Notes under the pieces: generated by a model
Database searches by the model: none
Seen by the model: the letters and a program-made list of their open reading frames with translations, nothing else
What the model was told of the DNA's origin: nothing
DNA from: Siphonodentalium dalli
Lineage: Eukaryota; Mollusca; Scaphopoda; Gadilida; Siphonodentaliidae
DNA length: 64,000 nt
Direction: 5' to 3'
Assembly: GCA_032622095.1 (NCBI GenBank)
Contig: CP136062.1
Span: 10,009,710-10,073,709, forward strand
In this document: positions 5,832-54,343 of the stretch, piece after piece
Layout: each line of letters starts with the position of its first letter
Position numbering within the stretch: position 1 is the first letter of the stretch
Program-made: the position numbers and the translations under genes

Positions 5832-6012
5832 TTGTTTCAGCTGAAATTGATAATAAGATGGACGAGTTGTTTGTTAAGTGTGGGTTAAACATCTATCGAT
5901 CGTTATTGGCCTCTCGTTTTTGTTTTAGCTGAGAATTATAATAATATGGATGAGCTGTAAAGTGTGGGTTAAACATCTGCCGATCGTGATTGGCCTCTCG
6001 TTTTATTTTCAG
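5832..6012 (+). repeat. Two degenerate copies of the exon 1 acceptor, about 86-bp period
   Basis: The acceptor and start of the 6013 exon ('ttcag' then CTGAAATTGATAATAAGATG) occur first at 5836-5860 and again, more mutated, at 5924-5955 (TTTTAG then CTGAGAATTATAATAATATG). Copies are 88 and 84 bp apart. Each keeps a pyrimidine tract and AG, so they are decoy acceptors. In the second copy an in-frame TAA follows GAGCTG, so it cannot replace the real exon. Confidence 0.8.
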
Positions 6013-6108
6013 CTGAAATTGATAATAAGATGGACGAGCTGTTAGGTGTGTTGAGTGTGGAGCTCGATGGAAGATTCTCAACAATTAGAACACAAGAAAC
6101 CAATCTAG
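6013..6108 (+). CDS. 5'-nucleotidase gene, exon 1 of those visible (start of C-terminal domain)
   Basis: The exon follows 'ttttattttcag' and ends at the donor TCTAG|GTGAGA. It starts with two bases completing a codon from an unseen upstream exon and ends with one base (phase 1). It encodes EIDNKMDELLGVLSVELDG then RFSTIRTQETNL, with the last G of NLG shared with the next exon. In UshA-family enzymes a segment of this kind (R..E..LGN..AD) links the metallophosphatase domain to the nucleotide-binding domain, and the join to NFITDIM in the next exon reproduces that motif. The length of 96 bp fits a normal internal exon. Both borders have been copied into the neighbouring introns: two acceptor copies upstream, and about 30 donor-region copies downstream. 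The identification rests on motif recognition, not on a search. Confidence 0.87.
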
Positions 6109-9870: not shown

Positions 9871-10109
9871 TGAGTGGTGTCTGAATGGGTCTGTATGGAG
9901 TTCCCGATAGAACCAATCTAAGTAAAGAGGGATTAATTCTACCCACATGGTACCTCAGAGATACATGCCTTTCACTACTGTGTGGTATCTGTTTCTCCCT
10001 GTTTGGGGCTCCATATGGGTTCTTAGGATACTTTGGTCCAACAGTCATAAGATATATGTCAGAGGAGCATGTTTTCCTTTTGAGGTATGAAATATTTTTT
10101 TACACTTTT

Positions 10110-12845: not shown

Positions 12846-12879
12846 ATACTGAGAGTTAACATTCACATTATCGTTTACA

Positions 12880-13476
12880 CTATCAGGTAATTTTATACCT
12901 ATAAAACGTTATTGTTTAAACTTACAGATAATTTTATACCCATAAAATGTTATTGTTTAAACTTACAGGTAATTTTATACCTATAGAACATTATTGATTA
13001 AACTTTAACATACAGGTAATCATATACCTATAAAACATAATGGTTTTCACTTTATACCTATAAAACATAATGGTTTACACTTTATACCTATAAAACATAA
13101 TAGTTTACACTTTATACCTATAAAACATAATAGTTTACACTTTATACCTATAAAACATAATAGTTTACACTTTATACCTATAAAACATAATGGTTTACAC
13201 ATTATACCTATAAAACATAATGGTTTTCACTTTATACCTATAAAACATTATGGTTTTCACTTTATACCTATAAAACATAATGGTTTTCACTTTATACCTA
13301 TAAAACATAATGGTTTTCACATTATACCTATAAAACATTATGGTTTACACTTTATACCTATAAAACATTATGGTTTACACTTTATACCTATAAAACATTA
13401 TAGTTGTCACTTTATACCTATAAATCTTTCTGGTTTTCACTTTATACCTATAAAACATTATGGTTTTCACTTTCAG
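12880..13476 (+). repeat. Acceptor-derived array before exon 2 (41-bp then 30-bp units)
   Basis: The upstream units (12880-13020) carry a 'cag' plus GTAATTTTATA, which is the exact start of the 13477 exon with its acceptor, followed by 'cctataaaacgttattg'. From about 13020 the array settles into a 30-bp unit, 'tttatacctataaaacataa' plus 'tggtttacac', in about 15 copies that have lost the AG. The final unit ends 'ggttttcactttcag', which is the functional acceptor. Part of this array supplies the pyrimidine tract of the real exon. Confidence 0.82.
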
Positions 13477-13644
13477 GTAATTTTATAACAGATATTATGC
13501 TGAATACAACGAATGCAGACGTCGCTCTACTCAACTCCGGGACGATGAGGTCCAACAAACAACATTCCAGGGGGAATTTCCACCTCCGCGACCTACTTAC
13601 GATTCTACCTCTAATAGATCCACTAGTAGTCATCAAAGTTAGCG
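13477..13644 (+). CDS. 5'-nucleotidase gene, exon 2 (NSG..R nucleotide-binding motif)
   Basis: The exon follows 'cactttcag' and ends at TTAGCG|GTGAGT; phase 1 at both borders. It encodes NFITDIMLNTTNADVALLNS, then GTMRSNKQHSRGNFHLRDLL, then TILPLIDPLVVIKVS. The sequence NSGTMR corresponds to the conserved N-G-G-x-R-type loop that binds the nucleotide in UshA and CD73, and the RDLLTILP segment matches the family's (Y/R)(D/E)LL..LP motif. Asn, Gly and Arg of the loop are present, which argues for an intact enzyme domain. The exon sits between an acceptor-derived array and two tandem copies of its own 3' end. Reading through the donor gives GEYHVKWGGVYHHLP and a stop at about 13689-13691. Confidence 0.9.
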
Positions 13645-13915
13645 GTGAGTATCATGTTAAATGGGGAGGGGTGTATCATCACCTTCCGTGACCTACTTAC
13701 GATACTACCTCTAATAGATCCGCTGGTGGTCATCAAAGTTAGCGGTGAGTATCATGTTAAATGGGCGGGGTGTATTGTCGCCTTAACTCCCGAACGATGA
13801 GATCCAATAAACAACATTCCAGGGGGAATTTCCACCTCCGCGACCTACTTACATCAAAGTTAGTGGTGAGTATCATGTTAAATGGGGAGGGGTGTATCGT
13901 CCAAGGCTCAAAATA
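13645..13915 (+). repeat. Two tandem copies of the exon 2 3' end with donor
   Basis: Copy one (13685-13784) repeats CGTGACCTACTTACGATACT to GTTAGCG|GTGAGTATCATG, with donor GT at 13745. Copy two (13785-13915) begins further inside the exon (AACTCCCGAACGATGAG), has lost about 31 bp in the middle, and ends GTTAGTG|GTGAG with donor GT at 13866. Both keep intact donors but have no acceptor of their own. Confidence 0.88.
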
Positions 13916-14478: not shown

Positions 14479-14651
14479 GTCGCCAGCTTATGGAAGCACT
14501 GGAGAATGGTGTGTCTCAGTATCCAAAACTGGAGGGCCGATTTCCACAGATATCAGGAATCACCTTTGGTTTTAATCCTGATAAGCCGGCAAATGAACGA
14601 ATAGATACTAGTCATGTTTCAGTACAAGGAAAACAAGTCGATCTGGATAAT
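14479..14651 (+). CDS. 5'-nucleotidase gene, exon 3 (GRFPQISG base-stacking segment)
   Basis: The exon follows 'ctcttttaag', starts with two bases completing Gly, and ends at GATAAT|GTGAGT in phase 0. It encodes RQLMEALENGVSQYPKLEG, RFPQISGITFGFNPDKPAN and ERIDTSHVSVQGKQVDLDN. The (A)LE.GVS....GRFPQ(V/I)SG block is a signature of the C-terminal domain; its Phe is the position that stacks on the nucleobase in characterised relatives. DLDN joins directly to HYRLCTKEY of the next exon, giving the family's 'd..Y.v.t..y' pattern. The last 93 bp of the exon with its donor are duplicated immediately downstream, offering a second in-frame donor at 14745. A third strong donor-like site (ATAG|GTAAGT) lies at 14785 but is out of phase. 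Confidence 0.9.
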
Positions 14652-14744
14652 GTGAGTTTTGGTTTTAATCCGAATAAGTCGGCAAATGAACGAATAGATA
14701 CTAGTCATGTTTCAGTACAAGGAAAACAAGTCGATCTGGATAAT
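14652..14744 (+). repeat. In-frame 93-bp duplication of the exon 3 end and donor
   Basis: Starting in the GTGAG of the first donor, the sequence repeats GGTTTTAATCCGAATAAGTC through GATCTGGATAAT and a second GTGAGT. Only two coding changes separate the copies (DKP versus NKS). 93 bp is 31 codons with no stop, so use of the second donor would insert 31 residues, VSFGFNPNKSANERIDTSH and the rest, without shifting frame. Which donor is used cannot be told from sequence. Confidence 0.85.
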
Positions 14745-17370
14745 GTGAGTTTTCCTTTTGAAATGACATGGAATTCACCCATAGGTAAGTAATAGTTGAA
14801 ACGTAACATGACACGAGCTTAGTGTAGCACATAGTCAGCAATCTGTAACGAGCCGAAACGTGATGAGACATACGCATAGTATGACACAGAGTCAGCAATC
14901 TGTAACGAGCCGAAACGTGATGAGACATAAGCATAGTATGACACAGAGTCAGCAATCTGTAACGAGCCGAAACGTGATGAGACATACGCATAGTATGACA
15001 CAGAGTCAGCAATCTGTAACGAGCCGAAACGTGATAAGACATACGCATAGTATGACACAGAGTCGGCAATCTGTAACGAGCCGAAACGTGATGAGACATA
15101 CGCATAGTATGACACAGAGTCAGCAATCTGTAACGAGCCGAAACGTGATGAGACATAAGCATAGTATGACACAGAGTCAGCAATCTGTAACGAGACGAAA
15201 CGTGATGAGACATAAGCATAGTATGACACAGAGTCAGCAATCTGTAACGAGCCGAAACGTGATAAGACATACGCATAGTGTGACACAGAGTCAGCAATCT
15301 GTAACGAGCCGAAACGTGATAAGACATACGCATAGTGTGACACAGAGTCAGCAATCTGTAACGAGCCGAAACGTGATAAGACATACGCATAGTATGACAC
15401 AGAGTCAGCAATCTGTAACGAGCCGAAACGTGATGAGACATACGCATAGTATGACACAGAGTCGGCAATCTGTAACGACCCGAAACGTGATGAGACATAC
15501 GCATAGTGTGACACAGAGTCAGCAATCTGTAATGAGCCGAAACGTGATAAGACATATGCATAGTGTGACACAGAGTCGGCAATCTGTAACGAGCCGAAAC
15601 GTGATGAGACATACGCATAGTATGACACAGAGTCGGCAATCTGTAACGAGCCGAAACGTGATGAGACATACGCATAGTATGACACAGAGTCAGCAATCTG
15701 TAATGAGCCGAAACGTGATAAGACATACGCATAGTGTGACACAGAGTCAGCAATCTGTAACGAGCCGAAACGTGATAAGACATACGCATAGTATGACACA
15801 GAGTCAGCAATCTGTAACGAGCCGAAACGTGATAAGACATACGCATAGTATGACACAGAGTCAGCAATCTGTAACGAGCCGAAACGTGATGAGACATACG
15901 CATAGTGTGACACAGAGTCAGCAATCTGTAACGAGCCGAAACGTGATGAGACATACGCATAGTATGACACAGAGTCAGCAATCTGTAACGAGCCGAAACG
16001 TGATGAGACATACGCATAGTGTGACACAGAGTCAGCAATCTGTAACGAGCCGAAACGTGATGAGACATACACATAGTATGACACAGAGTCGGCAATCTGT
16101 AACGAGCCGAAACGTGATGAGACATACGCATAGTATGACACAGTGTCAGCAATCTGTAACGAGCCGAAACGTGATGAGACATACGCATAGTATGACACAG
16201 AGTCAGCAATCTGTAACGAGCCGAAACGTGATAAGACATACGCATAGTGTGACACAGAGTCAGCAATCTGTAACGAGCCGAAACGTGATGAGACATACGC
16301 ATAGTGTGACACAGAGTCAGCAATCTGTAACGAGCCGAAACGTGATGAGACATACGCATAGTATGACACAGAGTCAGCAATCTGTAACGAGCCGAAACGT
16401 GATGAGACATACACATATTGTGACACAGAGTCAGCAATCTGTAACGAGCCGAAACGTGATGAGACATACGCATAGTATGACACAGAGTCAGCAATCTGTA
16501 ACGAGCCGAAACGTGATAAGACATACACATAGTATGACACAGAGTCAGCAATCTGTAACGACCCGAAACGTGATAAGACATACGCATAGTATGACACAGA
16601 GTCGGCAATCTGTAACGAGCCGAAACGTGATGAGACATACGCATAGTGTGACACAGAGTCAGCAATCTGTAACGAGCCGAAACGTGATGAGACATACACA
16701 TAGTGTGACACAGAGTCAGCAATCTGTAACGACCCGAAACGTGATAAGACATACGCATAGTGTGACACAGAGTCAGCAATCTGTAACGAGCCGAAACGTG
16801 ATAAGACATACGCATAGTATGACACAGAGTCAGCAATCTGTAACGAGCCGAAACGTGATAAGACATACGCATAGTATGACACAGAGTCAGCAATCTGTAA
16901 CGAGCCGAAACGTGATGAGACATACACATAGTGTGACACAGAGTCGGCAATCTGTAACGAGCCGAAACGTGATGAGACATACGCATAGTATGACACAGAG
17001 TCAGCAATCTGTAACGAGCCGAAACGTGATAAGACATACGCATAGTGTGACACAGAGTCAGCAATCTGTAACGAGCCGAAACGTGATGAGACATACGCAT
17101 AGTATGACACAGAGTCGGCAATCTGTAACGAGCCGAAACGTGATAAGACATACGCATAGTATGACACAGAGTCAGCAATCTGTAACGAGCCGAAACGTGA
17201 TAAGACATACGCATAGTGTGACACAGAGTCAGCAATCTGTAACGAGCCGAAACGTGATGAGACATACACATAGTATGACACAGAGTCGGCAATCTGTAAC
17301 GACCCGAAACGTGATAAGACATACGCATAGTATGACACAGAGTCAGCAATCTCTAACGAGCCGAAACGTG

Positions 17371-18907: not shown

Positions 18908-19194
18908 TGATGAGACATACGCATAGTATGACACAGAGTCAGCAATCTGTAACGAGCCGAAACGTGATGAGACATACGCATAGTATGACACAGAGTCAGC
19001 AATCTGTAACGAGCTGAAACGTGATGAGACATACGCATAGTATGACACAGAGTCAGCAATCTGTAACGAGCCGAAACGTGATAAGACATACGCATAGTGT
19101 GACACAGAGTCAGCAATCTGTAACGAGCCGAAACGTGATGAGACATAAGCATAGTATGACACAGAGTCAGCAATCTGTAACGAGCCGAAACGTG

Positions 19195-25788: not shown

Positions 25789-26434
25789 AGTTGACATTGT
25801 TACTACATTTCTGTGTCGAGTTTAATCAAATATTGCGTCAACTGAGGTACGAATTTGACAAATCCTACATTTATGCTTATCAAATAAAAGCTTCGTTGAA
25901 TGTTAATTTTCGCACTGTTAATGTCCCTGTGTAGCCCAAGAAATGACTTTTTGCGATTGGTTCGTGGTTTGATCTGATGGTCCCAATTTGACCAAGCCTA
26001 TTGTGACTCATTTTATGTATTGATCTCATCCCCGTATTTTTTCCGTGAGTCAACCTGGTGGATCTGCAAAGTCTACTCTATACAATGAAAACAAGAAGAA
26101 GCCCACTTTTGTCGTGCCAATTCAGCAAAAAGCTCCTTTATCTAAGTTTGTCATAAAATATCACGTATGATACGGTCGCAGAATCGTTAAACTGCCGTAG
26201 CACCGTGGTTGTCAAGTCGCAGAATCGTGAAATTGGTCGCAGAATCTTCAAAACGATTGTGCCGTGTGAATATGCATGCATTGTTGTTTATCAAAGGTCA
26301 ATAATAAGTATGAGAGATTTTTTAATTGAAATATGGGGGTATTATATTCAAAAAGACTGTAACACAACATTACCAATTATTGGAGGTCAGGGTATAAATT
26401 CGCTCACGAGTTGCTTCATTTCTCAGTGACATTT
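25789..26434. other. Unique intronic sequence
   Basis: No exon-like segment, tandem repeat or inverted terminus recognised, apart from a short 'gtcgcagaatcgt' motif repeated about three times around 26175-26245. Confidence 0.5.
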
Positions 26435-26437
26435 ATT

Positions 26438-26476
26438 GTTTTGTTTATATCAGCGTTACCATCTATATTATTAGAG
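26438..26476 (+). repeat. Degenerate copy of the exon 4 acceptor and exon start
   Basis: 'ttttgtttatatcag' followed by GCGTTACCATCTATATTA parallels the real junction 'ttttgtttatttcag' plus CATTACCGTCTATGCACC some 60 bp downstream. It is a single acceptor copy and quickly loses the reading frame. Confidence 0.65.
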
Positions 26477-26511: not shown

Positions 26512-26589
26512 CATTACCGTCTATGCACCAAAGAATATATTGCTCAAGGCAAGGATGGCTACGATGTGTTCAAGTCTTGTGAAATCTTG
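26512..26589 (+). CDS. 5'-nucleotidase gene, exon 4 (GKDGYDVF motif)
   Basis: A 78-bp exon between 'tttgtttatttcag' and ATCTTG|GTAAGA, phase 0 at both ends. It encodes HYRLCTKEYIAQGKDGYDVF plus KSCEIL, which matches the family pattern Y.v.t..yla.G.DGy..f. The Gly-x-Asp-Gly-aromatic motif carries the second base-stacking aromatic residue in UshA-type enzymes (Tyr here). Its intron neighbours are enormous: about 11.9 kb upstream, holding the 57-bp array, and about 13.4 kb downstream, holding a transposon and the 24-bp array. A partial second donor-like TTTTG|GTAACT lies 20 bp downstream but would change the phase. Confidence 0.9.
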
Positions 26590-33681: not shown

Positions 33682-34070
33682 GTTGAGTAACTGTGCTTTG
33701 ACTGACTCTGAGACGAGGCACAACAGTCAACACTTTCAGTTGTAAGCACATCGGTTCCATCCCGTTTTGCAACGTAATCATTCTAAATTCATATTGTATT
33801 GTATTCTGGATTCCTTTGTTTCCATTACCATGATTACATTTGCCCGCGATTATCTAATAATTTGAAAAACATTTCGTAATTCGCGGATGTAAACACTTTC
33901 CAAACTGGTCGCTCGATGTATCGTGACTACTAACTGCTTTCATGTTAATGTACTTCCTGTTGAATGTCCGCGCATGCGTACAGCCGACCTTCCTAAGCCG
34001 GCCGGTAACAACTGCCTACCTGCATCAGTACCTTGAATCTCAGCCATATTAATGTTAATGCCTTCAAAAT

Positions 34071-37000
34071 GAAGAGTGGCTTCCCTTGGATAATGAAGAG
34101 TGGCTTCCCTTGGATAATGAAGAGTGGCTTCCCTTGGATAATGATTAGTGGCTTCCCTTGGATAATGAAGAGTGGCTTCCCTTGGATAATGATTAGTGGC
34201 TTCCCTTGGATAATGATTAGTGGATTCCCTTGGATAATGAAGAGTGGCTTCCCTTGGATAATGAAGAGTGGCTTCCCTTGGATAATGATTAGTGGCTTCC
34301 CTTGGATAATGATTAGTGGCTTCCCTTGGATAATGAAGAGTGGCTTCCCTTGGATAATGATTAGTGGCTTCCCTTGGATAATGATTAGTGGATTCCCTTG
34401 GATAATGAAGAGTGGCTTCCCTTGGATAATGATTAGTGGCTTCCCTTGGATAATGATTAGTGGCTTCCCTTGGATAATGATTAGTGGCTTCCCTTGGATA
34501 ATGATTAGTGGCTTCCCTTGGATAATGATTAGTGGCTTCCCTTGGATAATGATTAGTGGCTTCCCTTGGATACTGATTAGTGGCTTCCCTTGGATAATGA
34601 TTAGTGGCTTCCCTTGGATAATGATTAGTGGCTTCCCTTGGATAATGATTAGTGGCTTCCCTTGGATAATGAAGAGTGGCTTCCCTTGGATAATGATTAG
34701 TGGCTTCCCTTGGATAATGATTAGTGGCTTCCCTTGGATAATGATTAGTGGCTTCCCTTGGATAATGATTAGTGGCTTCCCTTGGATAATGATTAGTGGC
34801 TTCCCTTGGATAATGATTAGTGGCTTCCCTTGGATAATGATTAGTGGCTTCCCTTGGATAATGATTAGTGGCTTCCCTTGGATAATGAAGAGTGGCTTCC
34901 CTTGGATAATGATTAGTGGCTTCCCTTGGATAATGATTAGTGGCTTCCCTTGGATAATGATTAGTGGCTTCCCTTGGATAATGATTAGTGGCTTCCCTTG
35001 GATAATGATTAGTGGCTTCCCTTGGATAATGATTAGTGGCTTCCCTTGGATAATGATTAGTGGCTTCCCTTGGATAATGATTAGTGGCTTCCCTTGGATA
35101 ATGATTAGTGGCTTCCCTTGGATAATGATTAGTGGCTTCCCTTGGATAATGATTAGTGGCTTCCCTTGGATAATGATTAGTGGCTTCCCTTGGATAATGA
35201 TTAGTGGCTTCCCTTGGATAATGAAGAGTGGCTTCCCTTGGATAATGATTAGTGGCTTCCCTTGGATAATGATTAGTGACTTCCCTTGGATAATGATTAG
35301 TGGCTTCCCTTGGATAATGATTAGTGGCGTCCCTTGGATAATGATTAGTGGCTTCCCTTGGATAATGAAGAGTGGCTTCCCTTGGATAATGATTAGTGGC
35401 TTCCCTTGGATAATGATTAGTGACTTCCCTTGGATAATGATTAGTGGCTTCCCTTGGATAATGATTAGTGGATTCCCTTGGATAATGAAGAGTGGCTTCC
35501 CTTGGATAATGAAGAGTGGCTTCCCTTGGATAATGATTAGTGGCTTCCCTTGGATAATGATTAGTGGCTTCCCTTGGATAATGAAGAGTGGCTTCCCTTG
35601 GATAATGATTAGTGGCTTCCCTTGGATAATGATTAGTGGATTCCCTTGGATAATGAAGAGTGGCTTCCCTTGGATAATGAAGAGTGGCTTCCCTTGGATA
35701 ATGATTAGTGGCTTCCCTTGGATAATGATTAGTGGCTTCCCTTGGATAATGAAGAGTGGCTTCCCTTGGATAATGATTAGTGGCTTCCCTTGGATAATGA
35801 TTAGTGGATTCCCTTGGATAATGAAGAGTGGCTTCCCTTGGATAATGATTAGTGGCTTCCCTTGGATAATGATTAGTGGCTTCCCTTGGATAATGATTAG
35901 TGGCTTCCCTTGGATAATGATTAGTGGCTTCCCTTGGATAATGATTAGTGGCTTCCCTTGGATAATGATTAGTGGCTTCCCTTGGATAATGAAGAGTGGC
36001 TTCCCTTGGATAATGATTAGTGGCTTCCCTTGGATAATGATTAGTGGCTTCCCTTGGATAATGATTAGTGGCTTCCCTTGGATAATGATTAGTGGCTTCC
36101 CTTGGATAATGATTAGTGGCTTCCCTTGGATAATGATTAGTGGATTCCCTTGGATAATGAAGAGTGGCGTCCCTTGGATAATGATTAGTGGCTTCCCTTG
36201 GATAATGATTAGTGGCTTCCCTTGGATAATGATTAGTGGCTTCCCTTGGATAATGATTAGTGGCTTCCCTTGGATAATGATTAGTGGCTTCCCTTGGATA
36301 ATGATTAGTGGCTTCCCTTGGATAATGATTAGTGGCTTCCCTTGGATAATGAAGAGTGGCTTCCCTTGGATAATGATTAGTGGCTTCCCTTGGATAATGA
36401 TTAGTGACTTCCCTTGGATAATGATTAGTGGCTTCCCTTGGATAATGATTAGTGGCTTCCCTTGGATAATGAAGAGTGGCTTCCCTTGGATAATGATTAG
36501 TGGCTTCCCTTGGATAATGATTAGTGACTTCCCTTGGATAATGATTAGTGGCTTCCCTTGGATAATGATTAGTGGCTTCCCTTGGATAATGATTAGTGGC
36601 TTCCCTTGGATAATGATTAGTGGCTTCCCTTGGATAATGAAGAGTGGCTTCCCTTGGATAATGATTACTGGCTTCCCTTGGATAATGATTAGTGACTTCC
36701 CTTGGATAATGATTAGTGGCTTCCCTTGGATAATGATTAGTGGCTTCCCTTGGATAATGAAGAGTGGCTTCCCTTGGATAATGATTAGTGGCTTCCCTTG
36801 GATAATGATTAGTGGCTTCCCTTGGATAATGATTAGTGGCTTCCCTTGGATAATGATTAGTGGCTTCCCTTGGATAATGATTAGTGGCTTCCCTTGGATA
36901 ATGATTAGTGGCTTCCCTTGGATAATGATTAGTGGCTTCCCTTGGATAATGATTAGTGGCTTCCCTTGGATAATGAAGAGTGGCTTCCCTTGGATAATGA

Positions 37001-37571
37001 TTAGTGGCTTCCCTTGGATAATGATTAGTGGCTTCCCTTGGATAATGATTAGTGGCTTCCCTTGGATAATGATTAGTGGCTTCCCTTGGATAATGAAGAG
37101 TGGCTTCCCTTGGATAATGATTAGTGGCTTCCCTTGGATAATGATTAGTGGCTTCCCTTGGATAATGATTAGTGGCTTCCCTTGGATAATGATTAGTGGC
37201 TTCCCTTGGATAATGATTAGTGGCTTTCCTTGGATACTGATTAGTGGCTTCCCTTGGATAATGATTAGTGGCTTCCCTTGGATAATGATTAGTGGCTTCC
37301 CTTGGATAATGATTAGTGGCTTCCCTTGGATAATGAAGAGTGGCTTCCCTTGGATAATGATTAGTGGCTTCCCTTGGATAATGATTAGTGGCTTCCCTTG
37401 GATAATGATTAGTGGCTTCCCTTGGATAATGATTAGTGGCTTCCCTTGGATAATGATTAGTGGCTTCCCTTGGATAATGATTAGTGGCTTCCCTTGGATA
37501 ATGATTAGTGGCTTCCCTTGGATAATGATTAGTGGCTTCCCTTGGATAATGATTAGTGGCTTCCCTTGGAT
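34071..37571 (+). repeat. 24-bp minisatellite, about 146 units, indel-free
   Basis: The unit is 'ttcccttggataatgattag' plus 'tggc'. The same phase is held from 34081 to 37561, exactly 145 periods, so there is no net length change. Main variants are gattag/gaagag, tggc/tgga, tggc/tgac and a few single changes. Both strands stay open because 24 is a multiple of three and no unit has a stop in the relevant frames, giving low-complexity frames of over 1,200 codons; the octapeptide SGFPWIMI has no features that would make it credible as protein. The array starts 42 bp after the target duplication of the 27675-34020 transposon. Confidence 0.93.
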
Positions 37572-38669: not shown

Positions 38670-39981
38670 TTAAGGAGTTAATGGTTACTTCTTCCCTGAT
38701 TGGTTGATAAACTTAACAATGCCGTGAGGAATCTTATTTAATCCTGTAAGGAGTTAATGGTTTACTCTCCTCCGATTGGTTGATAATTTTACCTTATCAG
38801 ATGAACAGTGTCCTACACATAACACCGCCATGAGGAATCTTGTTTAATCCTGTAAGGAGTTAATGGGTTACTCTCCTCTGATTGGTTGATAATTTTACCT
38901 TATCAGTAGGGCTTCATGGTATTTCGGTATTGAGTCATATCGCGATACTGTTTTTAGCACCGTATAGTCGGTTTCACTTTATGCAAATAGTCGGTACATC
39001 GTAGCCGCCGGTGTGGATATTAATACCGACGATATCACTATCAGTGTCAAGTATTTACAACCCTCAACACCTCTAATGCTGAGACAAAGGCCATGGCTAA
39101 CAGCTTCGGTTTAGCGTGGCGTAAAAATTAATAAACTCTCACTGCTCCATAAGTGTTTGTCAACACACTACGGACAATCAAGTCGGCATGCCTCACTGAA
39201 TGGGCGGCAATTGATGTTTATATAGTCTGTTCTCAGCTCAATATTGCTGGAAGATTTCCTGGTCAAATACAATAAAAACATCTATTAAATCTATTCTATG
39301 CTTGTCACGTGAGTTATCTTGTGTTGTGTGTACAATAAAAAATATGAAATCAATACATGTTTGCTGTAATTTTTTACAAGAGCGACTGTTAGCGACATTT
39401 ATAATGTCATAAGCGACCCACAGTTGATAGGGAATTCCCGATTACGTCAGGCATTTATAAATATATGTATCCGTCAGCAAATGAATGCAACATATTGCCA
39501 AGTATATCAAATCAATAATGCTATATTTTTTTCTGCTTGTTACTTTTATCATGCCCAAACAGTTCTACTCAAATTTATTGGTGACGATATTTAGTCATAC
39601 CGCGGTATCATTTTCAAAACCGTAGTCAGTATTAAAATCCGGATACCATGAAGCCCTACTTATCAGATGAACAGTGTCCTACACATAACACCACCGTAAG
39701 GAATCATTTTGAGTCCTTTAAGGAGTTAATGGTTACTTCTTCCCTGATTTGTTTATAATTTTACCTTATCAGATTAACAGTGTCTTACACTTAACACCGC
39801 CGTGAGGAATCTTGTTGAATTTTAAGGAGTTAATGGGTTACTCTCCTCTGATTGGTTGATAATTTTACCTTATCAGATGAACAGTGTCTTACACTTAACA
39901 CCGCCGTGAGGAATCTTGTTGAGTCCTGTAAGGAGTTAATGGGTTACTCTCCTCTGATTGGTTGATAATTTTACCTTATAG
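38670..39981 (+). repeat. 106-bp array derived from the exon 5 acceptor and exon start
   Basis: Each unit runs 'attggttgataattttacct' then 'tatcag' then ATGAACAGTGTCCTACACAT, AACACCGCCATGAGGAATC and 'aaggagttaatgggttactc'. The real exon at 39982 has the same flank and reads ATGAACAGTGTCCTACGCTC, AGCACCGCTGTGAGGAATCA. Five to six copies precede the exon. One copy (about 39700) still reads AGGAATCATTTTGAGTCC exactly as the exon does. Each copy has its own AG, but the frame after it hits TGA quickly. A hAT-like element splits one copy at 38907-39658. Confidence 0.87.
38907..39658. mobile_element. hAT-like MITE with 8-bp target duplication
   Basis: Ends are TAGGGCTTCATGGTAT and the complement ATACCATGAAGCCCTA, flanked by the 8-bp direct duplication CTTATCAG at 38899-38906 and 39659-39666. 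The 8-bp duplication and TAGGG terminus fit hAT elements. No open frame of note lies inside. It is inserted in the acceptor region of one 106-bp unit, so the array predates the insertion. Confidence 0.85.
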
Positions 39982-40106
39982 GTATCAGATGAACAGTGTC
40001 CTACGCTCAGCACCGCTGTGAGGAATCATTTTGAGTCCATTCAGATGTGTGCCGGAATAAAGCCATGTAAATCAGGTCACCGACAGAGCCTCATCAGTCT
40101 TATCAA
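39982..40106 (+). CDS. 5'-nucleotidase gene, exon 5 (C-terminal helix and extension)
   Basis: The exon follows 'ttttaccttatag' and encodes VSDEQCPTLSTAVRNHFES, IQMCAGIKPCKSGHRQSLIS and LI, ending AA|GTAAGA in phase 2. DE...P.LST.VRNHF.S matches the segment that follows GKDGYDVF in animal 5'-nucleotidases of this type. The start at 39982 keeps frame with exon 4; the AG six bases further in would introduce a stop after ten codons. The exon is enclosed on both sides by tandem copies of itself: its 5' half upstream, and its last 24 bases plus donor downstream. Continuing past the donor reads AAG TAA, an immediate stop, so every failure to splice here or use of a downstream donor ends the protein at ...SLISLIK. 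Confidence 0.88.
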
Positions 40107-43100
40107 GTAAGATTCCCCCATACAGAGCCTCATCAGTCTTATCAAGTAAGATTCCCCCCATACAGAGCCTCATCAGCCTCATCAAGTAAGATTCCCCCCA
40201 TACAGAGCCTCATCAAATACGATTCCCCCATACAGAGCCTCATCAAGTAAGATTCCCCCCATACAGAGCCGCATCAGCCTTATCAAGTAAGATTCCCCCA
40301 TACAGAGCCTCATCAGCCTCATCAAGTAAGATTCCCCCCATACAGAGCCTCATCAGCCTCATCAAGTAAGATTCCCCCATACAGAGCCTCATCAAGTAAG
40401 ATTCCCCCCATACAGAGCCTCATCAGCCTCATCAAGTAAGATTCCCCCATACAGAGCCTCATCAAGTAAGATTCCCCCCATACAGAGCCTCATCAGCCTC
40501 ATCAAGTAAGATTCCCCCATACAGAGCCTCATCAAGTAAGATTCCCCCATACAGAGCCTCACCAGCCTCATCAAGTAAGATTCCCCCATACAGAGCCTCA
40601 TCAAGTAAGATTCCCCCATACAGAGCCTCATCAAGTAAGATTCCCCCCATACAGAGCCTCATCAGCCTTATCAAGTAAGATTCCCCCATACAGAGCCTCA
40701 TCAGCCTCATCAAGTAAGATTCCCCCCATACAGAGCCTCATCAGCCTCATCAAGTAAGATTCCCCCATACAGAGCCTCATCAAGTAAGATTCCCCCCATA
40801 CAGAGCCTCATCAGCCTTATCAAGTAAGATTCCCCCATACAGAGCCTCATCAGCCTCATCAAGTAAGATTCCCCCCATACAGAGCCTCATCAGCCTTATC
40901 AAGTAAGATTCCCCCCCCCCATACAGAGCCTCATCAGCCTCATCAAGTAAGATTCCCCCCATACAGAGCCTCATCAGCCTTATCAAGTAAGATCCCCCCA
41001 TACAGAGCCTCATCAAGTAAGATCCCTCCCCCATACAGAGCCTCATCAGCCTCATCAAGTAAGATTCCCCCATACAGAGCCTCATCAAGTAAGATCCCCC
41101 CCATACAGAGCCTCATCAGCCTCATCAAGTAAGATTCCCCCATACAGAGCCTCATCAGCCTCATCAAGTAAGATTCCCCCATACAGAGCCTCATCAGCCT
41201 CATCAAGTAAGATCCCCCCCATACAGAGCCTCATCAAGTAAGATCCCCCCATACAGAGCCTCATCAAGTAAGATTCCCCCATACAGAGCCTCATCAGCCT
41301 CATCAAGTAAGATTCCCCCATACAGAGCCTCATCAGTCTCATCAAGTAAGATTCCCCCATACAGAGCCTCATCAGCCTCATCAAGTAAGATTCCCCCATA
41401 CATAGCCTCATCAGCCTCATCAAGTAAGATTCCCCCATACAGAGCCTCATCAGCATCATCAAGTAAGATCCCCCCCCCCCCATACAGAGCCTCATCAGTC
41501 TTATCAAGTAAGATCCCCCCATACAGAGCCTCATCAGCCTTATCAAGTGAGATCCCCCCATACAGAGCCTCATCAGTCTTATCAAGTAAGATCCCCCCCA
41601 TACAGAGCCTCATCAGTCTTATCAAGTAAGATCCCCCCATACAGAGCCTCATCAGCCTTATCAAGTAAGATCCCCCCCCCCCATACAGAGCCTCATCAGC
41701 CTCATCAAGTAAGATCCCCCCATACAGAGCCTCATCAGCCTCACCAAGTAAGATCCCCCCCATACAGAGCCTCATCAGTCTTATCAAGTAAGATTCCCCC
41801 ATACAGAGCCTCATCAGCCTCATCAAGTAAGATTCCCCCATACAGAGCCTCATCAGCCTCATCAAGTAAGATCCCCCCCCCCATACAGAGCCTCATCAAG
41901 TAAGATTCCCCCCATACAGAGCCTCATCAGCCTTATCAAGTAAGATTCCCCCATACAGAGCCTCATCAGCCTCATCAAGTAAGATCCCCCCCATACAGAG
42001 CCTCATCAGCCTCATCAAGTAAGATTCCCACATACAGAGCCTCATCAGCGTTATCAAGTAAGATTCCCCCATACAGAGCCTCATCAGCCTCACCAAGTAA
42101 GATTCCCCCCATACAGAGCCTCATCAGCCTCACCAAGTAAGATTCCCCCATACAGAGCCTCATCAGCCTTATCAAGTAAGATTCCCCCATACAGAGCCTC
42201 ATCAGCCTCACCAAGTAAGATTCCCCCCATACAGATCCTCATCAGCCTCACCAAGTAAGATTCCCCCATACAGAGCCTCATCAGCCTCACCAAGTAAGAT
42301 TCCCCCCATACAGAGCCTCATCAAATAAGATCCCCCCATACAGAGCCTCATCAAATAAGATTCCCCCCATACAGAGCCTCATCAAGTAAGATCCCCCCCA
42401 TACAGAGCCTCATCAGTCTTATCAAGTAAGATCCCCCCCCCCCCATACAGAGCCTCATCAGTCTTATCAAGTAAGATCCCCCCCATACAGAGCCTCATCA
42501 GCCTTATCAAGTAAGATCCCCCCCATACAGAGCCTCATCAGCCTCATCAAGTAAGATCCCCCCCATACAGAGCCTCATCAGCCTCACCAAGTAAGATCCC
42601 CCCCCCCATACAGAGCCTCATCAGTCTTATCAAGTAAGATTCCCCCCATACAGAGCCTCATCAGCCTCATCAAGTAAGATTCCCCCATACAGAGCCTCAT
42701 CAGCCTCATCAAGTAAGATTCCCCCATACAGAGCCTCATCAAGTAAGATTCCCCCCATACAGAGCCTCATCAGCCTCATCAAGTAAGATTCCCCCATACA
42801 GAGCCTCATCAGCCTCATCAAGTAAGATTCCCCCATAGAGAGCCTCATCAGCCTCATCAAGTAAGATCCCCCCATACAGAGCCTCATCAGCCTTATCAAG
42901 TAAGATTCCCCCATACAGAGCCTCATCAAGTAAGATTCCCCCATACAGATCCTCACCAGCCTCATCAAGTAAGATCCCACCATACAGAGCCTCATCAGCC
43001 TCATCAAGTAAGATTCCCCCATACAGAGCCTCATCAAGTAAGATTCCCCCCATACAGAGCCTCATCAGTCTTATCAAGTAAGATTCCCCCCATACAGAGC

Positions 43101-43905
43101 CTCATCAGCCTCATCAAATAAGATCCCCCCATACAGAGCCTCATCAAATAAGATTCCCCCCATACAGAGCCTCATCAAATAAGATTCCCCCCCCCATACA
43201 GAGCCTCATCAAGTAAGATTCCCCCATACAGAGCCTCATCAGTCTTATCAAGTAAGATTCCCCCATACAGAGCCTCATCAGTCTTATCAAGTAAGATTCC
43301 CCCCATACAGAGCCTCATCAGCCTTATCAAGTAAGATCCCCCCCCCCATACAGAGCCTCATCAGCCTTATCAAGTAAGATTCCCCCATACAGAGCCTCAT
43401 CAGCCTCATCAAGTAAGATTCCCCCATACAGAGCCTCATCAGCCTCATCAAGTAAGACCCCCCCCCATACAGAGCCTTATCAAGTAAGATTCCCCCATAC
43501 AGAGCCTCATCAGCCTCATCAAGTAAGATTCCCCCATACAGAGCCTCATCAGCCTCATCAAGTAAGATCCCCCCATACAGAGCCTCATCAGTCTTATCAA
43601 GTAAGATCCCCCCCCCCATACAGAGCCTCATCAGCCTCATCAAGTAAGATCCCCCCCATACAGAGCCTCATCAGTCTTATCAAGTAAGATCCCCCCCATA
43701 CAGAGCCTCATCAGTCTTATCAAGTAAGATTCCCCCATAGAGAGCCTCATCAGTCTTATCAAGTAAGATTCCCCCATACAGAGCCTCACCAAGTAAGATC
43801 CCCCCCATACAGAGCCTCATCAGTCTTATCAAGTAAGATTCCCCCATACAGAGCCTCATCAAGTAAGATTTCCCCCATACAGAGCCTCATCAAGTAAGAT
43901 TCCCC
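40107..43905 (+). repeat. Array of about 100 copies of the exon 5 donor junction
   Basis: The exon end ACAGAGCCTCATCAGTCTTA then TCAA|GTAAGATTCCCCC is repeated head to tail as 'cagagcctcatcagcctcat', 'caagtaagattccccccat'. Units are about 40 bp, or about 30 bp where the 'cagcctcat' segment is missing, with the C run varying from 5 to 12 bases. Almost every unit keeps CAAGTAAGA, a good match to a 5' splice site. Small frames such as those reading MRLCMGESYL on the minus strand are by-products of the repeat. Confidence 0.93.
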
Positions 43906-43914
43906 CCCCCCCCC

Positions 43915-44500
43915 AAATCATTAAAAACATGGCCGCCAGCAGCCATTTAGGATTTCAAATTTGAATCCATCGACACGATGCAATGCAGCCCGCATTTATT
44001 GGAGAAATGTATTGAGAATTTACAGGCATTTTTAGAATCAACTCTAGATGGGAGCTATCGATTTTTAGTGATTTTTAGCTCACCTGAGACGAAGTCTCCG
44101 GTGGAGCTATAGTCATCACTCCTCGTCCGTCGTCCGTCCGTCTGTCCGTCTGACCGTCTGACCGTCCGTCCGTCCGTCCGTCAACAATCATCTTCTTCCT
44201 TAGTATCTCATAAGGCCAAATGAGTTCATATTTGGTGTGGATGTTCCCTGCTTGACTCAGACTCAGATTTGTTAAAATAAGGTCACTGAGTCAAATAGTT
44301 GCGAAGCTAGGGCCATAACTCTTTCCCGCCATAGTAATTCTTAAAACAACTTCTTTTCAAGAACAATCAGGCCTATTTAGCTTATATTTGGTATGGAAGG
44401 TCCTTGAGTGACTGGGGGTCAGATTTGTTCAAATGGGGTCACTGGGTCAAATAGGGGCAGAATCAGGGACATAACTCTCTTCTCCCTAGTAATTATTAGC
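43915..44500 (+). repeat. Dispersed satellite unit plus 'tagctcacctgagacgaag' repeat
   Basis: 43921-44080 ('catggccgccagcagccat', 'gaatccatcgacacgatgc') matches units at 52680-52800. 44085-44500 is another copy of the molluscan-type repeat with a gtccgtcc tract and 'ggtgtggatgttccctg'. Confidence 0.7.
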
Positions 44501-44506
44501 TCAACT

Positions 44507-47500
44507 TACTTTTGTAAGTTTGAGCTATTGCCATGGTTTGGCGTCCGTCGTCTGTGTGTCCGTGTGTCCGTCAACAATTTCCTTTGGCGCGGGCTACAGG
44601 TCGTACCTTTGGTCTGATCTTTATGAAATTTGTCATGAATGTTGACATTGACATGTAGATGGGAAACGAGTCATTTTGGGGTCATACGGCCAAAAAACAT
44701 GGCTGCTGGCAGCCATCTTGGATTTCAAGATTCAATCCATTGGCGCGGGCTACAGGTCGTACTGTTCGTCTGATCATCATGAAATTTGTCATGGATGTTA
44801 ATAATGACATATAGATGGGAATGAGTGATTTTGGGGTCGTTCGGCCAAAAAACATGGCTGCCAGCAGCCATCTTGGATTTTACTCTTTGCATGACTAAAT
44901 CCTTTTGCGCGGGCTACAGGTCGTTGCGTTTGTCGGAAGTTTATGAAATTTGTCATGGATGTTAACATTGACATGTAGATGGGAAACGAGTGATTTTGGA
45001 GTCGTTCGGCCAAAAAACATGACCGCCAGCAGCCATCTTGGATTTTACTCTTTGCATGACTAAATCCTTTGGCGCGGGCTGCAGGTTGTACCTTTGGTCT
45101 AATCTTTATGAAATTTGTCATGAATGTTGACATTGACATGTAGATGGGAACGAATCATTGTGGGGTCGTTCGGCCGAAAAACATGGCTGCCAGCAGCCAT
45201 CTTGGATTTTACTCTTTGCATGACTAAATCTTTTGGCGCTGGCTACAGGTCGTAGCTTTTATCGGAAGATCATGAAATTTGTCATGGATGTTAATATTGA
45301 CATGTAGATGGGAATGAGTCATTTTGGGGTCATTCAGCCAAAAAACATGGCCGCTGGCAGCCATCTTGGATTTCAAGATTCAATCCATTGGCACGGGCTA
45401 CAGGTCGTACTGTTCGTCTGATCATCATGAAATTTGTCATGGATGTTAATATTGACATGTAGATGGGAACGAGTCATTTTTTGGGGTCGTTCGGCCAAAA
45501 AACATGGCCGCCAGCAGCCATCTTCGATTTTACTCTTTGCATGACTAAATCCTTTGCCGCGGGCTACAGGTCGTAGATTTTATCTGAAGATCATGAAATT
45601 TGTCATGGATGATAACAATGACATGTAGATGGGAACGAGTCATTTTGGGGTCGTTCGGCCGAAAAACATGGCTGCCAGCAGCCATCTTGGATTTTACTCT
45701 TTGCATGACTAAATCCTTTGGCGCGGGCTACAGGTCGTACCTTGGTCTAATCTTTATGAAATTTGTCATCAATGTTAATATTGACATGTAGATGGGAACG
45801 AGTCATTTTTTGGGGTCGTTCGGCCAAAAAACATGGCCGCCAGCAGCCATCTTCGATTTTACTCTTTGCATGACTAAATCCTTTGGCGTGGGCTACAGGT
45901 CGTAGCTTTTATCGGAAGATCATGAAATTTGTCATGGATGTTAACAATGACATGTAGATGGGAACGAGTCATTTTGGGGTCGTTCGGCCGAAAAACATGG
46001 CAGCCATCTTGGATTTTACTCTTTGCATGACTAAATCTTTTGGCGCTGGCTACAGGTTGTAGCTTTTATCGGAAGATCATGAAATTTGTCATGGATGTTA
46101 ATATTGACATGTAGATGGGAACGAGTCATTTTGGGGTCATTCGGCCAAAAAACATGGCCGCTGGCAGCCATCTTGGATTTCAAGATTCAATCCATTGGCG
46201 CGGGCTACAGGTCGTACTGTTCGTCTGATCATCATGAAATTTGTCATGGATGTTAATAATGACATATAGATGGGAATGAGTGATTTTGGGGTCGTTCGGC
46301 CAAAAAACATGGCTGCCAGCAGCCATCTTGGATTTTACTCTTTGCATGACTAAATCCTTTGGCGCGGGCTGCAGGTTGTACCTTTGGTCTAATCTTTATG
46401 AAATTTGTCATGAATGTTGACATTGACATGTAGATGGGAACGAATCATTGTGGGGTCATTCGGCCAAAAAACATGGCTGCTGGCGGCCATATTAGATTTC
46501 AAAATTCAATCCATTGGCGCGGGCTACAGGTCGTACTGTTCGTCTGATCATCATGAAATTTGTCATGGATGTTAATATTGACATGTCGATTGGAACGAGT
46601 CATTTTGGGGTCGTTCGGCCAAAAAAACATGGCGCCATCAGCCATCTTGGATTTTACTCTTTGCATGACTAAATCCTTTGGCGTGGGCTACAGGTCGTAG
46701 CTTTGATCGGAAGATCATGAAATTTGTCATGGATGTTAACAATGACATGTAGATGGGAACGAGTGATTTTGGGGTCGTTCGGCCAAAAAACATGGCTGCC
46801 AGCAGCCATCTTGGATTTTACTCTTTGCATGACTAAATCCTTTGGCGCGGGCTACAGGTCGTTGCGTTGGTCGGAAGTTTATGAAATCTGTCATGGATGT
46901 TAACACTGACATGTAGATGGGAACGAGTGATTTTGGAGTCGTTCGGCCAAAAAACATGGCCGCCAGCAGCCATCTTGGATTTTACTCTTTGCATGACTAA
47001 ATCCTTTGGCGCGGGCTACAGGTTGTACCTTTGGTCTAATCTTTATGAAATTTGTCATGAATGTTGACATTGACATGTAGATGGGAACGAATCATTGTGG
47101 GGTCATTCGGCCAAAATAACATGGCTGCTGGCGGCCATCTTAGATTTCAAAATTAAATCCATTGGCGCGGGCTACAGGTCGTACTGTTCGTCTGATCATC
47201 ATGAAATTTGTCATGGATGTTAATATTGACATGTAGATGGGAACGAGTCATTTTTTGGGGTCGTTCGGCCAAAAAACATGGCCGCCAGCAGCCATCTTCG
47301 ATTTTACTCTTTGCATGACTAAATCCTTTGGCGCGGGCTACAGGTCGTAGATTTTATCTGAAGATCATGAAATTTGTCATGGATGTTAACAATGACATGT
47401 AGATGGGAACGAGTCATTTTGGGGTCGTTCGGCCGAAAAACATGGCTGCCAGCAGCCATCTTGGATTTTACTCTTTGCATGACTAAATCCTTTGGCGCGG

Positions 47501-50010
47501 GCTACAGGTCGTACCTTGGTCTAATCTTTATGAAATTTGTCATCAATGTTAATATTGACATGTAGATGGGAACGAGTCATTTTTTGGGGTCGTTCGGCCA
47601 AAAAACATGGCCGCCAGCAGCCATCTTCGATTTTACTCTTTGCATGACTAAATCCTTTGGCGTGGGCTACAGGTCGTAGCTTTTATCGGAAGATCATGAA
47701 ATTTGTCATGGATGTTAACAATGACATGTAGATGGGAACAAGTCATTTTGGGGTCGTTCGGCCGAAAAACATGGCAGCCATCTTGGATTTTACTCTTTGC
47801 ATTACTAAATCTTTTGGCGCTGGCTACAGGTCGTAGCTTTTATCGGAAGATCATGAAATTTGTCATGGATGTTAATATTGACATGTAGATGGGAACGAGT
47901 CATTTTGGGGTCATTCGGCCAAAAAACATGGCCGCTGGCAGCCATCTTGGATTTCAAGATTCAATCCATTGGCGCGGGCTACAGGTCGTACTGTTCGTCT
48001 GATCATCATGAAATTTGTCATGGATGTTAATAATGACATATAGATGGGAATGAGTGATTTTGGGGTCGTTCGGCCAAAAAACATGGCTGCCAGCAGCCAT
48101 CTTGGATTTTACTCTTTGCATGACTAAATCCTTTGGCGCGGGCTGCAGGTTGTACCTTTGGTCTAATCTTTATGAAATTTGTCATGAATGTTGACATTGA
48201 CATGTAGATGGGAACGAATCATTGTGGGGTCATTCGGCCAAAAAACATGGCTGCTGGCGGCCATATTAGATTTCAAAATTCAATCCATTGGCGCGGGCTA
48301 CAGGTCGTACTGTTCGTCTGATCATCATGAAATTTGTCATGGATGTTAATATTGACATGTAGATTGGAACGAGTCATTTTGGGGTCGTTCGGCCAAAAAA
48401 ACATGGCGCCATCAGCCATCTTGGATTTTACTCTTTGCATGACTAAATCCTTTGGCGCGGGCTACAGGTCGTAGCTTTGATCGGAAGATCATGAAATTTG
48501 TCATGGATGTTAACAATGACATGTAGATGGGAACGAGTGATTTTGGGGTCGTTCGGCCAAAAAACATGGCTGCCAGCAGCCATCTTGGATTTTACTCTTT
48601 GCATGACTAAATCCTTTGGCGCGGGCTACAGGTCGTTGCGTTGGTCGGAAGTTTATGAAATCTGTCATGGATGTTAACACTGACATGTAGATGGGAACGA
48701 GTGATTTTGGAGTCGTTCGGCCAAAAAACATGGCCGCCAGCAGCCATCTTGGATTTTACTCTTTGCATGACTAAATCCTTTGGCGCGGGCTACAGGTTGT
48801 ACCTTTGGTCTAATCTTTATGAAATTTGTCATGAATGTTGACATTGACATGTAGATGGGAACGAATCATTGTGGGGTCATTCGGCCAAAATAACATGGCT
48901 GCTGGCGGCCATCTTAGATTTCAAAATTAAATCCATTGGCGCGGGCTACAGGTCGTACTGTTCGTCTGATCATCATGAAATTTGTCATGGATGTTAATAT
49001 TGACATGTAGATGGGAACGAGTCATTTTTTGGGGTCGTTCGGCCAAAAAACATGGCCGCCAGCAGCCATCTTCGATTTTACTCTTTGCATGACTAAATCC
49101 TTTGGCGCGGGCTACAGGTCGTAGATTTTATCTGAAGATCATGAAATTTGTCATGGATGTTAACAATGACATGTAGATGGGAACGAGTCATTTTGGGGTC
49201 GTTCGGCCGAAAAACATGGCTGCCAGCAGCCATCTTGGATTTTACTCTTTGCATGACTAAATCCTTTGGCGCGGGCTACAGGTCGTACCTTGGTCTAATC
49301 TTTATGAAATTTGTCATCAATGTTAATATTGACATGTAGATGGGAACGAGTCATTTTTTGGGGTCGTTCAGCCAAAAAACATGGCCGCCAGCAGCCATCT
49401 TCGATTTTACTCTTTGCATGACTAAATCCTTTGGCGTGGGCTACAGGTCGTAGCTTTTATCGGAAGATCATGAAATTTGTCATGGATGTTAACAATGACA
49501 TGTAGATGGGAACGAGTCATTTTGGGGTCGTTCGGCCAAAAAACATGGCCGCCAGTAGCTATCTTGGATTTTACTCTTTGCATGACTAAATCCTTTGGTG
49601 CGGGCTACAGGTCGTAGCTTTGGTCAGATGGTCATGAAATTTGTCATGGATGATAACAATGACATGTAGATGGGAACGAGTCGTTTTGGGGTCATTCTGT
49701 CCAAACACATGGCCACCAGCAGCCATCTTGGATTTTACTCTTTGCATGACTAAATCCTTTCGCGCGGGCCATTTTGGATTTTCAAAATTCAATCCATTGG
49801 CGCGGTCTACAGGTCGTACTGTTCGTCTGATCATCATGAAGTTTGTAGGTCGTAGCTTTGGTCAGATCTTCATAAAATGTGTCATGGATGTTAACAATGA
49901 CAAGTAGATGGGGAACGAGTCCTTTTGGGGTCAATTGGCCAAAAAACATGGCCGCCAGCAGCCATCTTGTATTTTACTCTTTGCGTCACTAAATCCTTGG
50001 GCGCAGGTTA
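44507..50010 (+). repeat. ~165-bp satellite array, about 33 units
   Basis: Units of 156-165 bp carry 'catggccgccagcagccatc', 'ttggattttactctttgcat', 'ggcgcgggctacaggtcgta', 'catgaaatttgtcatggatg' and 'gacatgtagatgggaacgag'. It begins with 'tagctcaacttacttttgta', a mirror-like 'ttgtaagtttgagctatt' and a gtccgtcg tract. Copies differ by substitutions and small indels, so open frames are short. From about 45400 the unit order repeats with a 1774-bp period. Confidence 0.9.
45600..49550 (+). repeat. 1774-bp higher-order repeat within the 165-bp array
   Basis: Diagnostic units recur at this spacing: the shortened unit 'aaaaacatggcagccatctt' at about 45990 and 47764; 'gaagtttatgaaatctgtca' at about 46877 and 48651; and a three-copy marker, 'accttggtctaatctttatg' with 'catcaatgttaat', at about 45740, 47514 and 49288. 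The period corresponds to eleven basic units. Confidence 0.8.
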
Positions 50011-50049
50011 GACATTTCAATTAGCACCTTTCCTATTCCTCCATTTACT

Positions 50050-50600
50050 GTCAACCATTAAATTATTCCCCTACCTAAGTTGAGCTACAGTGTCATTGAC
50101 ACTTTCATTAGAATGACTTCTTCTCCAGAATCATCAGGCCGATTTAGCTAATATTTTGTATGGTGGGTCCTTGTGTGACTGGGGTTCAGATTTGTTCAAA
50201 TGGGGTCAGTGTGTCAAATAGGGGCCGTGTCAGGAACATAACTTTAAATTTTTATTTTTTTTAATATTGTTAAATTTAAATCCTTGCTCAATTCAAAAAA
50301 CAAATCACAATTCAAAATGAACCAATACAAAAATATTGTTTTCATTTTAACCCCTGATTTTTTGTATTTTTTTAGACACAAAACACCCCATTCCACCCCT
50401 TTCCCTCCTCACCCCTCTACACCCCTGTCCCCACTACCACCCCCCCCCCCCCCAATCTGCGCCCACTGCAGTCAAGAAAAAATTAATTAGAAAAACTGAC
50501 ACCTTGTAACATCCATAAAGTATGGTATTAGCCCCAGACAGAAAGAGTTAATAACAGTCATCAATTCAGATGTTATCTAGCTGGTTGACAGCTATGTGTA
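50050..50600. other. Intron with fragments of dispersed repeats
   Basis: 50100-50240 is a fragment of the 'ggttcagatttgttcaaatg' repeat. 50385-50460 is C-rich low-complexity sequence. No exon recognised. Confidence 0.5.
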
Positions 50601-53930: not shown

Positions 53931-54065
53931 TTTAATGTAATTATTTTCTTTACACGATACAATCCTTTTACTGAAACTTTTTTACTTTCCTTCTTTATCA
54001 TTCTATTGACTTCTCAGCATAAAATTATTAATGCCTCCCAAGTTGAGCTACAGTGTCATTGACAC

Positions 54066-54195
54066 TTTCATTATGTTTGTTTTCTGCTGTCCTTGTCATG
54101 TTCTATTCTTTATTTGCCGAGTTATGTGTGTTTTCTGATGTCCCTATATGTTATATTCCCTGTATGCCTAGTTATGTTTGTTTTGTATTTTTCAG
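54066..54195 (+). repeat. Tandem copies of the exon 6 pyrimidine tract
   Basis: 'gttatgtgtgttttctgatg' with 'tccctatatgttatattccc' and 'tgtatgcctag' is repeated about 2.5 times at roughly 53-bp spacing up to the acceptor 'ttttgtatttttcag'. The intermediate copies end in gccgag or gcctag, so they may act as weak acceptors. Confidence 0.65.
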
Positions 54196-54343
54196 GAAAG
54201 AGAGCATGATTTTACATGAAGTACATTCCAACCATTCTATCACCAGATCGTTGGTTCGACAGCAGAGTGTTCACGATGCTGAGTGCGAAAAATGTCAGAT
54301 CGCTCCGTCCAAAGAAGGAAGGATTTATATGATTGACACCGAG
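54196..54343 (+). CDS. 5'-nucleotidase gene, exon 6 (C-terminal extension)
   Basis: The exon starts with one base completing the Lys codon split at the exon 5 donor (AA plus G) and ends ACCGAG|GTAAAC in phase 0. It encodes KESMILHEVHSNHSITRSLV, RQQSVHDAECEKCQIAPSKE and GRIYMIDTE. The tail is rich in His, Ser, Cys and charged residues and has no hydrophobic stretch. EGRI..ID resembles the final strand of related animal proteins, but I am less certain of homology here than for exons 2-4; its membership rests mainly on the exact phase fit on both sides and on the open frame with consensus borders. One Cys pair (C..C, ECEKC) could bind metal or form a disulfide, but nothing shows that. Confidence 0.78.

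Follow-up and report, generated by a model that had tools for sequence, protein, structure and literature searches.

In the mollusc Siphonodentalium dalli, an exon of a 5'-nucleotidase-like gene is followed by a ladder of 102 tandem units (40083..43914, + strand), each composed of the end of the exon, its donor and a run of C. The ladder lies in a 64-kb stretch of DNA analysed here as a whole (the window), and by its anatomy it is a mirage-type exon-intron junction minisatellite, three of the five defining features of mirages being found in it. We consider it quite probable that the ladder is neutral, its rungs being carried passively while the first donor would do most of the splicing.

Experiments on how a cell settles on one of several identical adjacent 5' splice sites usually engineer two or three of them. 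Here a single allele carries 96 GT-bearing copies in cis and a gradient of exon lengths from 125 bases upward, and leaves only two protein outcomes, that of the first donor or an immediate stop. The ladder is thus a good natural test of splice-site choice among many equals, and it would place junction minisatellites well outside amphioxus and man.

The host gene and its exons

We scanned the 228 open frames lying outside arrays against Pfam. Three of them matched PF02872, the 5'-nucleotidase C-terminal domain (best 1e-11), and among the 228 no other family was found below 7e-4. Five exons on the + strand were then placed by homologues and by in-frame joining, namely E1 (6013..6108), E2 (13477..13644), E3 (14479..14651), E4 (26512..26589) and E5 (39982..40106), the last being a native exon of 125 bp whose joins are consistent in phase and which ends in CAA at the first donor. 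E1 to E5 join in frame to give 212 residues. With an E cut-off of 0.001 these match 222 proteins, led by one of Biomphalaria glabrata (62% identity over 97%). They also match bacterial and human 5'-nucleotidases whose structures are known, 34 distinct sequences in all. A tblastn search with the 120 listed homologues matched all five exons and revealed a sixth at about 54245. This next exon, E6 (54196..54343, +), was fixed by its in-phase join to E5. E1 to E6 join without extra sequence, and their in-frame product is the 5'-nucleotidase C-terminal domain, with 53-64% identity to the aligned mollusc proteins. With E6 added, the list of matches is headed by named mollusc proteins (Elysia, Solemya, Sinanodonta, Mizuhopecten and others).

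Because E6 joins E5 in phase, CAA|GTAAGA is the donor required by the frame. This native donor, GTAAGATTC (40107..40115, +), is the first rung of the ladder. Thus the exon and the donor proposed in an earlier sequence-only reading of this DNA are real: the joins are consistent in phase, homologues cover the exon, and the phase of E6 agrees. The same reading called the exon "exon 5", which is right for the window, where it is the fifth, and wrong for the gene, in which it is the eleventh of twelve exon matches (C2:9964395 to 10064061, in a genome of 2.227 Gb in 9 contigs), six of them lying upstream of the window. In one homologue, P0121 of Elysia marginata, the stretch matching E4 and E5 is repeated (alignment A4, columns 534-616), which is due to a duplicated exon or else to a faulty gene model.

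Anatomy of the donor ladder

Tandem Repeats Finder described 40083-43861 as a 39-bp unit present in 100.3 copies. Our own parse of 40086-43910, cut at the GAGCC motif, gave 102 units including the native one, of which 76 are long (about 39-45 bp, with two 9-bp blocks) and 26 are short (about 30-34 bp, with a single 9-bp block). The unit starts with 40083-40106, the final 24 bases of E5, and ends with the C-run of the intron start, which agrees with the unit first proposed, the last 24 exon bases plus the donor. The C-run varies in length from 5 to 13, and most of the variation of the second 9-bp block lies between two sequence types, the native GTCTTATCA and GCCTCATCA. Like neighbours were counted 31 times along the array of this single haplotype, compared with 22.4 +/- 3.9 in shuffles.

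The motif CAAGTAAGA, said to be kept by nearly every unit, is present in 95 of the 102, and the + strand of the window has no copy of it outside the ladder. The donor itself reads AGTAAGA in 95 of the 102 units and AGTGAGA in one (CAAGTGAGA), and in the remaining 6, located at three distinct places along the array, the G of GT is gone. GT is retained in 96 of 102 units when the native unit is counted and in 95 of 101 when the copies alone are counted, the first donor lying at 40107 and the last rung at 43894. These counts bear out the original description of roughly 100 near-identical 5' splice sites, and by descent the units are copies of the E5 junction. When 20,000 units were shuffled, 0.24% held an equally good donor as scored with an assumed position matrix. 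With the same matrix, six further arrays in the window showed no donor that good on their + strand.

A transposon or satellite family was rejected as the source of the array: a whole-genome search with its first 318 bases returned at least 18 matches, all of them in the array. A protein-coding array is ruled out in the frame of the gene, which meets TAA at once. A minus-strand sequence resembling a hammerhead (CTGATGAG) had no Rfam match, and no RNA family of Rfam matched the window at the gathering threshold.

Tandem copies at other junctions of the gene

Local copies cross 8 of the 12 junctions in the window, all on the + strand: the acceptors of E1, E2, E4 and E5 and the donors of E1, E2, E3 and E5. 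No crossing local copies were found at the E3 acceptor, the E4 donor or either side of E6. The E1 acceptor and exon start form an 84-bp unit present 2.6 times (5832..6050), with AG retained in the copies (3 of 3), whereas the end of E1 lies, with a dead donor, in the unit of the 109-bp arrays at 6180-6624 and 7127-9883, where GT is found in 0 of 26 copies by pattern and in 0 of 18 by alignment. The E2 acceptor region is copied in units of 41, 47 and 30 bp (12868..13473; AG kept in 4 of 5), and the E2 end with its donor is present as the native one plus two copies, both of which retain GT (13581..13898; 2 of 2). The E3 end and donor form a 93-bp unit present twice (14565..14753; GT retained, 1 of 1), and the E4 acceptor has a single copy with its AG (26432..26466; 1 of 1). 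A 106-bp unit holding the start of E5 with its acceptor region is repeated in tandem at 38714..38906 and again at 39659..40037, where the last copy is the native one; AG is absent at the aligned position in these copies (0 of 4) because they are without six bases there.

The 93-bp duplication of the E3 end spans 31 codons and is in frame, and use of its second donor would add 31 residues with no frameshift. At 54071-54184, a 50-bp repeat similar to the pyrimidine tract of the E6 acceptor stops immediately ahead of that acceptor, and no copy of it crosses the E6 junction. Tandem Repeats Finder also reported two further arrays, 14828-25679 (57 bp x 190) and 34068-37571 (24 bp x 146), whose units are stop-free in several frames and so give open frames of >1200 codons; these open frames are unlikely to be genes. 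The intron that holds the donor ladder also contains a 164-bp tandem array of 32 copies (44580-49769).

Comparison with known junction repeats

In amphioxus, repeats that span an exon-intron boundary, called mirages, have been reported not to disturb regular splicing (PMC3087553, PMC3902484). In these reports 5' and 3' boundaries can both be affected, and many, though not all, copies keep AG or GT; the units are 150-160 bp long and number 3 or 6 in BflGb6, and are 10-72 bp long in Adh3. Mirages are reported from PGBD5 too, and Adh and troponin C are also named (PMC3902484). The present gene shares three features with them: the units hold the exon end together with the splice site (24 exon bases and the donor), donor and acceptor sides are both affected, and many but not all copies keep AG or GT (95 of 101 at the E5 donor, 0 of 26 at the E1 donor). 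The differences are that the host is a mollusc rather than a cephalochordate and that the units number 102; splicing itself was assayed in amphioxus.

The closest parallel in man is the VNTR in intron 18 of ABCA7, a gene of Alzheimer risk, described as a C-rich 25-bp unit starting at the exon 18 donor GT, with 23.7 units in the reference and named alleles of 315 to 9711 bp (PMC5954066). According to the same report, the donor one unit on is used at 2 +/- 1% independently of array length, the transcript so made is out of frame and subject to decay, and longer arrays go with more skipping of exon 19 and lower expression. As in ABCA7, the array here begins at the donor and the donor lies within the units; unlike the present units with their 24 exon bases, the ABCA7 unit has no exon tail in that description. 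ABCA7 is also a case of a single junction, with measured effects of length on exon skipping and expression.

Two further systems are less close. Variable minisatellites at exon-intron boundaries of human segmental-duplication genes can alter splicing; they average 30-bp units x 4 and were found by comparing paralogues and transcripts (PMC2812944). Tandem duplication of an intron-exon stretch that carries splice signals has led to intron gain (PMC4974935), making a new intron of a kind that is not seen in the E1-E6 joins here. Our literature searches, in which subscription journals were thinly covered, found no junction minisatellite in a mollusc.

Origin of the ladder and use of its rungs

We propose that a tandem duplication caught the last 24 exon bases and the first ~15 intron bases, donor included, and that the duplicated pair grew to 102 units through unequal exchange and slippage. 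The inner 9-bp repeat would let units alternate between lengths of ~39 and ~30 bp, and slippage would also act on the C-run. The rungs would then be donors by descent that are passively carried, and the cell most likely keeps using the first donor, the sole one that yields the ancestral exon. By analogy, the ladder most likely works as ABCA7 does, with the first donor carrying nearly all splicing and the next rungs leaking slightly; its length would act, if at all, on neighbouring exons or on dose.

When the E5 frame is read on, TAA follows directly after the first donor, so all later rungs give an identical truncated product. With 4 of the rungs the exon would measure 300 bases or less. Transcripts from these rungs, which we expect to be rare, would stop at this TAA and be either degraded or translated into a protein without its tail.

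We compared the rate of substitution within the unit. The nine donor bases differ in 8 of 918 cells and fifteen other well-aligned bases in 10 of 1524 (p = 0.63), a comparison that omits the C-runs and also the second 9-bp block, which has differences in 58 of 684 cells and was set apart because most of its variation lies between two sequence types; when the whole unit is counted, second block and C-runs included, the donor is among the steadier parts. The E1 donor ladder is without GT in 26 of 26 copies, and therefore ladders need not keep their donors; GT in 95 of 101 copies here could be explained by function too. The remark, made when the ladder was first noticed, that it could equally be neutral is supported.

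The strength of the rungs was predicted in two ways, with the assumed donor matrix and with an assumed U1 5' end of human type. By the matrix the rungs score 8.1 bits and are ordinary donors, the natives of E1 to E4 scoring 9.2, 8.7, 8.8 and 7.6. A rung is predicted to pair with the U1 5' end at -4.5 kcal/mol, the weakest value among the E1-E5 donors (-9.5, -11.3, -5.5 and -8.0 kcal/mol for E1 to E4; -14.0 for an ideal site).

These data bear on functional readings of the ladder. One is that splicing is unproductive in proportion to length, the number of decoy donors setting the share of transcripts that stop after the exon and thus the dose of the enzyme. The in-frame TAA, which makes all later rungs equal in protein outcome, and the GT kept in 95 of 101 copies would suit this, as would the fall in expression and the rise in exon skipping that go with longer ABCA7 arrays; but the next-rung isoform of ABCA7 is itself unchanged with length (PMC5954066), the donor shows no extra conservation once the second 9-bp block is set aside, and the rungs are predicted to pair weakly with U1. 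We regard this reading as unlikely. A related proposal, which we hold to be quite unlikely, is that an allele's equal decoy donors, aided by the E5 acceptor copies, would form a length-coded rheostat for the dose of the 5'-nucleotidase-like enzyme by fixing the fraction of transcripts terminated one codon beyond the exon.

The rungs could also gather U1 snRNP, either as a buffer for U1 or as a shield of the long intron against premature polyadenylation, both of which had been suggested for the ladder. GT is found in 96 of 102 units, and the intron after E5 (40107-54194) is 14,088 bp long with 98 GTAAG. Buffering is unsupported, however, since rung pairing is the weakest of the E1-E5 donors and the donor bases change like other conserved parts of the unit. 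Protection from polyadenylation is unsupported as well: the sense strand of the intron has 0 AATAAA (6 on the opposite strand), which would leave little to silence, though there are 7 sense ATTAAA; about 3 AATAAA would be expected outside the two arrays of the intron, and simulations were free of the motif in 4% of cases. In the window's remaining long introns, the arrays examined hold no such ladder on the + strand. Taken together, these results make a U1 platform very unlikely.

Tandem arrays are hard to assemble with the right copy number, and the ladder might be an assembly artefact, either inflated in number or misplaced. But there are 48 distinct units among the 102, the longest exact repeat (164 bp) is well within long reads, and the flanks belong to one gene with its exons in order, which renders an artefact highly improbable. 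Each unit also ends in a weak acceptor-like C-run-ATACAG, giving 100 CATACAG|-type sites and donor-to-acceptor distances of 50, 59 and 60 bases; productive alternative splicing or the making of micro-exons inside the array is still barely conceivable, and the extensive kind suggested earlier unlikely, since, by a home-made score in which native acceptors fall between the 90th and 99.9th percentiles of all AG of the window, the acceptor-like sites reach the 88th, and any extended exon meets TAA immediately.

Junctions as targets of tandem duplication

To see whether junctions are preferred targets, we counted boundaries and intronic points crossed by local copies, taking 2 kb on either side in the window and 1.5 kb at outside loci. 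In the window, 8 of 12 junctions were crossed, compared with 129 of 527 intronic points when the big arrays are excluded (p = 0.002) and with 573 of 975 intronic points overall (p = 0.40); the former comparison omits the long arrays and the latter weights them by length, so neither is perfect.

Outside boundaries were chosen automatically with assumed matrices, and several of them are low-scoring. For TCP-1/cpn60 we used 22 of 30 loci, omitting 2 long open matches and 6 near-duplicates, and found 40 of 44 boundaries; for the upstream exons of the 5'-nucleotidase-like gene, 6 of 6 were used; for myosin-head, 14 of 30 loci were used and 26 of 28 boundaries found, the omitted loci having in-match stops, lying in crowded clusters of chromosome C4 or, in one case, being a duplicate. 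Crossing copies were found at 6 of 40 TCP-1/cpn60 boundaries (intronic points, 175 of 968), at 1 of 12 boundaries of the upstream exons (68 of 264) and at 0 of 26 myosin-head boundaries (50 of 616). Pooled outside the window, boundaries (7 of 78) were not above intronic points (293 of 1848), with p = 0.11 in the opposite direction. Outside junctions are struck no more than introns, so no targeting needs to be assumed, and special targeting of junctions is unsupported.

The window junctions differ from those outside (8 of 12 vs 7 of 78, p = 3e-5), also when the flagged one is left out (7 of 11 vs 7 of 78, p = 1e-4), and the introns of the window are themselves richer in local copies (129 of 527 vs 293 of 1848, p = 1e-5). 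Junctions are not favoured generally; the present stretch of the gene is exceptional. A second donor ladder was found at one outside locus, L033 (G000:C2:20443658-20446789), where an exon matching the TCP-1/cpn60 family is followed at 1603-2042 by a 39-bp unit of exon end and donor in 9 copies, 4 of them with GT, 4 with CT and 1 with AT.
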